DNA of 15,146 nt from Candidatus Tayloriibacteriota bacterium (GTDB lineage: Bacteria > Patescibacteriota > Minisyncoccia > Phycocordibacterales > PALSA-1337): assembly GCA_023269245.1 (NCBI GenBank), contig JAHFMB010000010.1, forward strand, positions 1 to 15,146, read 5' to 3'. A program made the position numbers and the translations under genes. The notes under the pieces were generated by a model. The model saw only the letters and a program-made list of their open reading frames with translations. It had not been told where the DNA came from and ran no database searches. This document shows positions 477-933 of this stretch, piece after piece. The stretch's first letter is position 1, and every line of letters begins with the position of its first letter.

Positions 477-571
477 CAGGCTCTTTCGTGTCCTAAACCA
501 CTCTCCACAGAAATTGTCCAGTTATGCACAACTTATATACAGCTTAGTCACTCATTTACAGTTATTTTGTA

Positions 572-599
572 TTGACTTCAACTAAATAGGGTCCATAAT
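572..599 (+). promoter_or_regulatory. Sigma70-type promoter of the structured RNA locus
   Basis: TTGACT at 572-577 and CATAAT at 594-599 are separated by 16 bp. The predicted start is about base 606, which is within a base or two of the first paired base of the long closing stem of the downstream RNA (605/606 with 735/734). That coincidence between promoter geometry and RNA structure supports both calls. Confidence 0.55.
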
Positions 600-605
600 G
601 GCTAT

Positions 606-735
606 AGGCTCTTGTTCATGGAGAAAATCCTTAACTCAAATTACAGGAATCACAATGTACCTATTGCACTTCGTGCAAGGTCTCGATTCCACTTTATATT
701 TTTTGGACTCTCTCTCCACTATGAACAACAGCCTA
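606..735 (+). ncRNA. ssrS: Putative 6S-like structured RNA
   Basis: No protein gene fits here, but the sequence folds by inspection into a rod. Bases 605-610 pair with 730-735; 611/729 is a C-C mismatch; 612-619 pair with 721-728; 620-623 pair with 714-717, leaving 718-720 bulged. Two unpaired strands of similar size follow (624-645 and 691-713, the second containing TATATTTTTT). An apical part then pairs 646-651 with 685-690, 659-661 with 679-681 and 664-669 with 673-678, with a UUC loop. A closing stem, large central bubble and terminal stem-loop is the known layout of 6S RNA, which mimics an open promoter and binds RNA polymerase holoenzyme. The promoter just upstream starts transcription at the foot of the stem. 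At ~130 nt it is shorter than E. coli 6S (~184 nt). The structure is seen; the family assignment is inference. An unrelated structured RNA is possible. Confidence 0.5.
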
Positions 736-744
736 CCCTATGGC

Positions 745-770
745 ACACTACCCGCTTTGGCGGGTAGTGT
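745..770. repeat. Strong perfect hairpin (11 bp stem, TTTG loop)
   Basis: 746-755 (CACTACCCGC) is perfectly complementary to 760-769 with loop TTTG; A745-T770 extends it to 11 bp. There is no T-tract on either side, so it is not a classical intrinsic terminator. It lies 10 bp downstream of the putative 6S-like RNA and may mark or protect its 3' end. Confidence 0.6.
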
Positions 771-810
771 TGCGTATGGAATACTATATTGAACTACCAT
801 AATACATCCA

Positions 811-858: not shown

Positions 859-933
859 CTACGCCTGTGGAGGATTTGTCGGCTGCTGCGTAGGAGCTGC
901 AGGAGCTGGCTGTTGTGGCTTGTCTTTTGCCAT
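859..933 (-). CDS. Candidate small Pro/Gln/Ala-rich protein (24 aa)
   Basis: ATG at 933-931 and TAG at 861-859 enclose 24 codons. The peptide begins MAKDKPQQPAPAAPTQQP and ends in NPPQA, so it is very rich in Pro, Gln and Ala with a short charged N-terminus and no membrane segment. It would be disordered. Support for a real unit comes from context: a perfect TATAAT box lies 35 bp upstream at 974-969, and an intrinsic terminator (836-811) follows within 25 bp. No Shine-Dalgarno sequence is visible. I do not recognise a family. The biased composition argues against random sequence, but short low-complexity frames can arise by chance, so coding status is uncertain. Confidence 0.4.
   Translation of the reverse strand: MAKDKPQQPAPAAPTQQPTNPPQA

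Follow-up and report, generated by a model that had tools for sequence, protein, structure and literature searches.

Bacterial 6S RNA acts as a mimic of the open promoter, as passages of PMC8876501 describe it. According to the same passages, the E. coli RNA carries a -10-like region in the 3' strand of its bubble and a -35-like region in its apical arm, its product RNA pairs with the 5' strand of the bubble and the adjoining helix, and the B. subtilis 6S-1 RNA, trimmed to the bubble and two short arms, still runs through its cycle in vitro, with binding about tenfold weaker. Other polymerase-binding RNAs are reported from Actinobacteria: Ms1, a 6S-like rod structurally related to 6S RNA, yet binds the core enzyme and by definition is not a 6S RNA, as set out in parts of PMC9130861, and CoRP binds both core and holoenzyme, as stated in parts of PMC11077062. 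The open-access literature on 6S RNA together with Patescibacteria or the Candidate Phyla Radiation yielded no report of 6S RNA in these organisms.

Here, we analyzed a DNA stretch of 15,146 nucleotides (the window), taken from one contig of an 814-kb genome that is 83% complete, in which a first-pass annotation had proposed an undescribed 6S-like RNA. Comparison with relatives makes it well supported that the locus belongs to a conserved family of structured RNAs with a promoter-like site and an end hairpin. It is indeed undescribed as far as Rfam goes, since the locus scored above the gathering threshold of no family (the sole match in the window, elsewhere, was to a tRNA), and the broader open-access literature held no report of this RNA. 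The suggested search with the Rfam 6S covariance model (RF00013) left the window and its relatives unmatched: there was no match at lax E-values (limits 10, 5 or 1) in the 11 of 26 members scanned, window included, and genome-wide in 100 relatives none passed the cut-off, with a single sub-threshold match (G089). Because the same model, which detected 6S RNA in five of 14 control genomes (four over the cut-off), was silent in the other nine, its silence in the relatives argues only weakly against another 6S RNA there. With 6S RNA (RF00013; SsrS) the window RNA shares the rod with closing stem, bubble and apical arm, a transcription unit of its own, in some members possibly a -10-like element in the 3' strand of the bubble and, if the 3' hairpin is counted, a similar length; it differs in having no covariance-model match and in its short arms, and polymerase binding and a product RNA are predictions for it. 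We therefore do not class it as an Rfam 6S RNA, yet consider that it probably works like one.

Fold and orientation of the window RNA

In the minimum-free-energy (MFE) fold, nucleotides 605-735 form a rod consisting of a stepped closing stem, a central bubble of 15 x 14 nt and an apical stem-loop (Table 1), which agrees with the 6S-like architecture that the first-pass annotation had recognized, with stem, bubble and apical arm in the right polarity. Its interrupted closing stem is present as stepped helices (605-624 with 713-735), and the nested apical stem-loop also appears in the fold. The bubble is real as well, and the 22-23 nt per side ascribed to it require that the 3-bp UCC/GGA helix be left out of account. 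Likewise, the strong hairpin noted at 745-770 was recovered and is conserved in relatives; its descending arm carries TTT in 18 of the 24 homologues and lacks it in the window copy. The label of a miniature RNA of ~130 nt was overstated, as the predicted transcript, from the promoter to the end of this conserved 3' hairpin, measures ~166 nt.

Table 1. Coordinates of the predicted RNA and its upstream elements in the window
Feature	Position	Strand	Basis or remark
Three DnaA-box-like 9-mers (TTATGCACA, TTATATACA, TTAGTCACT) in 11-bp steps	522..552	+	weaker fourth at 501-509
Sigma-70-type promoter, TTGACT-16-CATAAT	572..599	+	motif scan; conserved in 23/24 homologues; points at stem base
Closing stem, 5' strand	605..624	+	fold
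Closing-stem pairs	605-610/730-735, 612-618/722-728, 619-624/713-718	+	MFE fold
UCC (pairs with 705-707) and UUAA	628..634	+	fold; candidate product-RNA start
Bubble-proximal 3-bp helix, UCC/GGA	628-630/705-707	+	MFE fold
Central bubble, 5' strand	631..645	+	fold
Apical stem-loop	646..690	+	fold; different sequence of the first helix in L033 (G012) and L035 (G067), pairing kept
Apical pairs	646-651/685-690; terminal hairpin 659-662/678-681, 665-669/673-677	+	MFE fold
Central bubble, 3' strand	691..704	+	-10-like TATATT at 695-700, putative -10 role
Closing stem, 3' strand	705..735 (705-707, 713-718, 722-728, 730-735)	+	fold
3' hairpin	739..776 (core 745-755/760-770, weaker flank 739-742/773-776)	+	conserved; proposed transcript end

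Most pairs of the MFE fold have a probability of at least 0.9, and the outer flank of the 3' hairpin reaches no more than ~0.5. On the plus strand, the region 600-740 has an MFE of -41.2 kcal/mol, whereas dinucleotide shuffles give -21.5 ± 3.3 kcal/mol (z -6.0; none of 200 as good). This excess exists only relative to the composition of the region itself, as the raw energy is unremarkable, with 522 of 1502 folding windows on both strands folding better. Furthermore, the minus strand folds equally well (z -6.3), so that orientation is not given by energy alone and must come from elsewhere. Counting G-U against A-C cells was not decisive in this respect, since the base stem (21 to 4) and the closing helix (20 to 14) favor the plus strand and the apical helix speaks against it (3 to 11). 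The plus orientation is supported by the predicted promoter.

Conservation and spread of the RNA family

Among the 24 homologues, the base of the stem mostly reads TAGG or CAGG and the apical hairpin is variable. The border between closing stem and bubble is GGAGAAGAUCC-UUAA-like, with CCUUAA, the most conserved motif of the bubble edge, in 22 of 26 members (L044 and L045 included), and the other border of the bubble is mostly GGGUCC paired with GGACACC, a helix that in L033 and L035 is rewritten yet still paired. The 3' hairpin is GC-rich and lies mostly inside UAUGGCA...UGC. When folded singly, all 26 bodies pair their ends, 23 have a z below -2, and ten combine paired ends with an open loop of at least 8 x 8, against 2.2% of shuffles. 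The arrangement expected of a 6S RNA, a rod whose closing and apical stems are separated by a central bubble, was found, with the bubble partly closed by internal pairs in 16 of the 26 single-sequence MFE folds.

Two-sided change occurs in 31 of the 40 pairs of the whole structure, where 82.3% of cells are paired, and in 19 of the 26 pairs of the body without the 3' hairpin. In the body 77.9% of cells are paired; column shuffles give 72.6%, none of 500 reaching the observed value, and partners that were slid give 39-54%. Pair counts exceed most slid controls, the exception being the +1 slide in the closing helix, which gives 15 two-sided-change cells against 12, and body partners slid by +1 still show two-sided change in 17 of 26 pairs against 19 for the true ones. 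For the whole structure, the body and single helices, most measures exceed the column shuffles; the number of further pair types in a single helix is reached by 35 of 500 shuffles. Ranking by mutual information placed only six column pairs of the structure among the top 30, five of them in the 3' hairpin. Altogether, compensatory changes in the stem, on whose presence among relatives the first-pass annotation had made its proposal depend, were found, and covariation supports the 6S-like helices, modestly for the body by the mutual-information ranking.

BLASTN with the window stretch matched four of the 33 other genomes of the genus. A covariance model (R1) built from these four relatives and the window (five sequences) was searched in 100 relatives and gave full-length matches at E ≤ 5.4e-11 in 22 of the 34 genomes of the genus, counting that of the window, a weak match in G033 (E 5e-4) that was retained since promoter and CCUUAA are present, one match among 19 other family members (G067, E 2.3e-8), and none that we accepted in 47 further genomes of the order. 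Wider searches added G121 and G327. The RNA family was thereby found in 23 of 34 genomes of the genus, in one of them weakly, as well as in a single further genus of the same taxonomic family and in two further families within the order. In these searches, model R2 (cut-off 0.001) was passed by 72 of 297 order genomes, four of them of the own genus; for the other 68, verdicts refer to the 13 loci inspected, among which G121 and G327 were judged real, one locus (L066) a different RNA, and ten were rejected. Model R3 (cut-off 0.01) was passed by 11 of 397 genomes, with eight candidates scored per genome, and may miss diverged copies; its matches in G154 and G297 did not stand up to inspection.

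Weak R1 matches in G055, G093, G069, G003, G047, G057, G026, G027 and G066 were discarded because of their E-values or because they covered too little, as were secondary antisense or hairpin-only matches, and R3 found nothing below 0.4 in G026, G027, G003, G066 and G069. Occurrences of the exact pattern CCTANNCTATGGCA in G044, G032, G028 and G066, which by eye seem coding and lack such a fold, were also dropped. An exact core pattern that fits only some family members occurs in six stretches of public genome contigs (uncultured bacterium, three; Patescibacteria, two; Candidatus Paceibacterota, one) and in no viral contig. The matches in G068 (L100, L106, L107) are no such RNA; they are three copies of an unrelated, long, MITE-like inverted repeat (GGTCTCTTCACTAAAGCG..).

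Eleven of the 34 genus genomes, five of them at least 96% complete, gave no credible copy with R3 and laxer filters (best E 0.07, in G015, rejected by eye), and in these the RNA would be either dispensable or diverged beyond reach. The stretch after enolase, viewed at 13 loci (eight of the 11 copy-less genus genomes and five other family members), held the RNA at none; in G020, enolase is followed by a different terminator and then directly by gpmI. In G006, all that seems to remain of the RNA just after enolase (L127) is a GTGACCATTATG-like 3' end with the hairpin, which suggests that this species has lost the gene.

Promoter and upstream repeats

The motif scan located the promoter where the first-pass annotation had placed it, at 572-599. 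A single site of this kind is weak alone, 1.2 being expected by chance in 801 bases. It is lifted above chance because it is conserved at a near-fixed distance from the RNA: a promoter scoring at least 8/12 and ending 2-5 nt before the stem precedes 23 of the 24 homologues, against 1.0% of 9600 random positions, and at a score of at least 9/12 the figures are 20 of 24 and 0.55%, with the RNA start placed by hand at the AGG motif in nine of the 24. The consensus is TTGACT-16/17-TANAAT-like, and the 24th homologue (L019) has TTGACT with GACAAT, outside the pattern that our script accepted.

Upstream of the promoter lie the phased 9-mers of Table 1, the sole three-box run in the window, which we name after the DnaA-box consensus. 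Across 26 upstream stretches, 9-mers close to TTATNCACA occur on one strand at 42.3 per kb, compared to 4.4 in the background and 4.8 on the opposite strand. At least one box precedes 25 of the 26 members, and 23 have at least two at a spacing of 10-12 bp (exceptions L020, L037 and L045). A strict two-box pattern occurred four times in 40 genomes, twice before the RNA (G017, G023) and twice in G011, once ahead of an mraZ gene and once after ruvB ends and before yebC starts; phased arrays were noted at L140 and L142 as well as at 501-552 of the window. Neither in G009 nor in G067 does the GC skew switch clearly at the RNA locus; the idea of a replication origin was thus dropped, and we read the array as a candidate regulator site, for which DnaA would be the obvious, as yet unproven, occupant. 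DnaA-box-like repeats upstream of the promoter of this RNA are new here.

Candidate function, alternatives and a second RNA

A 6S-like regulator of RNA polymerase is the most likely reading, to which we would give slightly better than an even chance. As we picture it, a stand-alone small RNA gene would be transcribed from the base of the rod, the 3' hairpin ending the transcript, and its promoter would be controlled through the upstream boxes. The rod, with its two stepped arms and the conserved unpaired sequence of the bubble, would pose as an open promoter to the housekeeping RNA polymerase, where the apical arm may stand for upstream DNA, the 3' bubble strand for the -10 non-template strand and the closing stem for downstream DNA. 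The polymerase would be held until the closing stem is unzipped by a short product RNA, predicted to start in the window as AAGGAUUUUCUCC, for which the CCUUAA edge would serve as template. CCUUAA sits at this predicted start, and -10-like hexamers of at least 5/6 occur in the 3' bubble strand of eight of 24 homologues, against 2.8 expected (0.65% of shuffles reach this number; the sequences are related). At 4/6 the count, again from related sequences, is at chance level (12 of 24 against 9.2). Position and hexamers are consistent with polymerase mimicry, not proof of it. The candidate is conserved, can be aligned and comes with a promoter as well as with predictions of its ends and product RNA, and so opens the question whether these very small genomes control polymerase by RNA to direct tests.

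The only pointers to polymerase, however, are the architecture and a weak -10-like content, and other partners might use the conserved sequence of the bubble or the UAUGGCA...UGCGUAUG motifs on either side of the 3' hairpin. A conserved non-coding RNA with another partner, be it a scaffold, a protein sponge or an antisense RNA, whose likeness to 6S arose by chance, we hold to be rather unlikely; against it, the search for a better-fitting RNA class found none in Rfam, as neither the window RNA nor the ten other members scanned locally exceeded the gathering threshold of any family, and the best sub-threshold matches were at chance level or, as with Leu_leader (E 0.01, L035), fell in the region of the 3' hairpin. 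The same shape might also serve a different form of the target, namely polymerase core, or core and holoenzyme, since Ms1 hides core binding behind a 6S shape (PMC9130861). We hold this to be quite improbable: Ms1, as described there, is longer (~300 nt) and has additional hairpins at both ends, and like CoRP (PMC11077062) it is reported from Actinobacteria. The unit predicted here would measure ~166 nt and carry one extra 3' hairpin.

Genomic context bears on the remaining explanations. Of the 24 loci, 19 have enolase in the upstream flank that was retrieved (in L018 another ORF may intervene), the unit ends in a terminator-like hairpin, and the nearest long downstream ORF, judged by eye, is on the same strand in nine of 24, often gpmI, all of which would suit an element acting in cis, be it a leader or attenuator for the gene that follows or part of the 3' UTR of enolase. 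Yet a promoter of its own precedes the RNA in 23 of 24 loci, the first long ORF downstream runs towards it in 13 of 24 including the window (again by eye; two are unclear), and five upstream flanks are without enolase, among them the window, where a 157-aa partial ORF without Pfam match is found, and L015, where a DNA polymerase III alpha gene lies upstream; nor is enolase in the upstream flank of G121 or G327. This makes a cis-acting element very unlikely. An inverted-repeat mobile element, a decayed coding gene or a chance fold, which the palindromic shape and a 64-aa ORF (598-792) overlapping the window copy could suggest, is scarcely credible: BLASTN finds a single copy in its own 83% complete genome, structure and promoter are conserved in relatives, the ORF has no Pfam match, and the homologues share no reading frame, some frame being open in ten of 24 and the frames differing. 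The locus is thus without a protein gene, as originally described, and the decayed gene named there as a refuting outcome is not supported. Beyond the RNA, the window holds a tiny Pro/Ala/Gln-rich ORF of 24 codons (859-933, minus strand) and a terminator-like stem at 823-836; similar tiny ORFs were seen by eye after enolase at L111 and L112.

A second, separate 6S-shaped RNA of ~160 nt in another family of the order is new here (L066, L143-L156 and L160; G248:C12:25460-25650 and relatives). It resembles the window RNA in its closing stem, bubble, terminator-like end and the absence of an Rfam 6S match (13 loci scanned), and it differs in a hairpin within the 3' bubble strand (CACCUGG..CCAGG), which together with closing stem and bubble appeared in the 15 copies folded; model R3 does not match it. 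Putting both RNAs together, one may speculate that Patescibacteria possess a polymerase-sequestering RNA whose promoter, under phased DnaA boxes, would couple transcription as a whole to the initiation of replication in a minimal cell, and that, with a second, diverged RNA of the same shape in another family, 6S-like function would be widespread in the order and invisible to current models; as a whole, we rate this scenario as unlikely. A strict pattern for the second RNA, weak as it misses members of its own family, was found in none of the nine window-genus genomes drawn, and in 397 genomes it hit six of its own family and one doubtful other. DNA matches to the second RNA occur in 31 of 49 genomes of its family; in 17 of the 49 the match covers 70 or more bases of the body, and the rest are partial or confined to the terminator.
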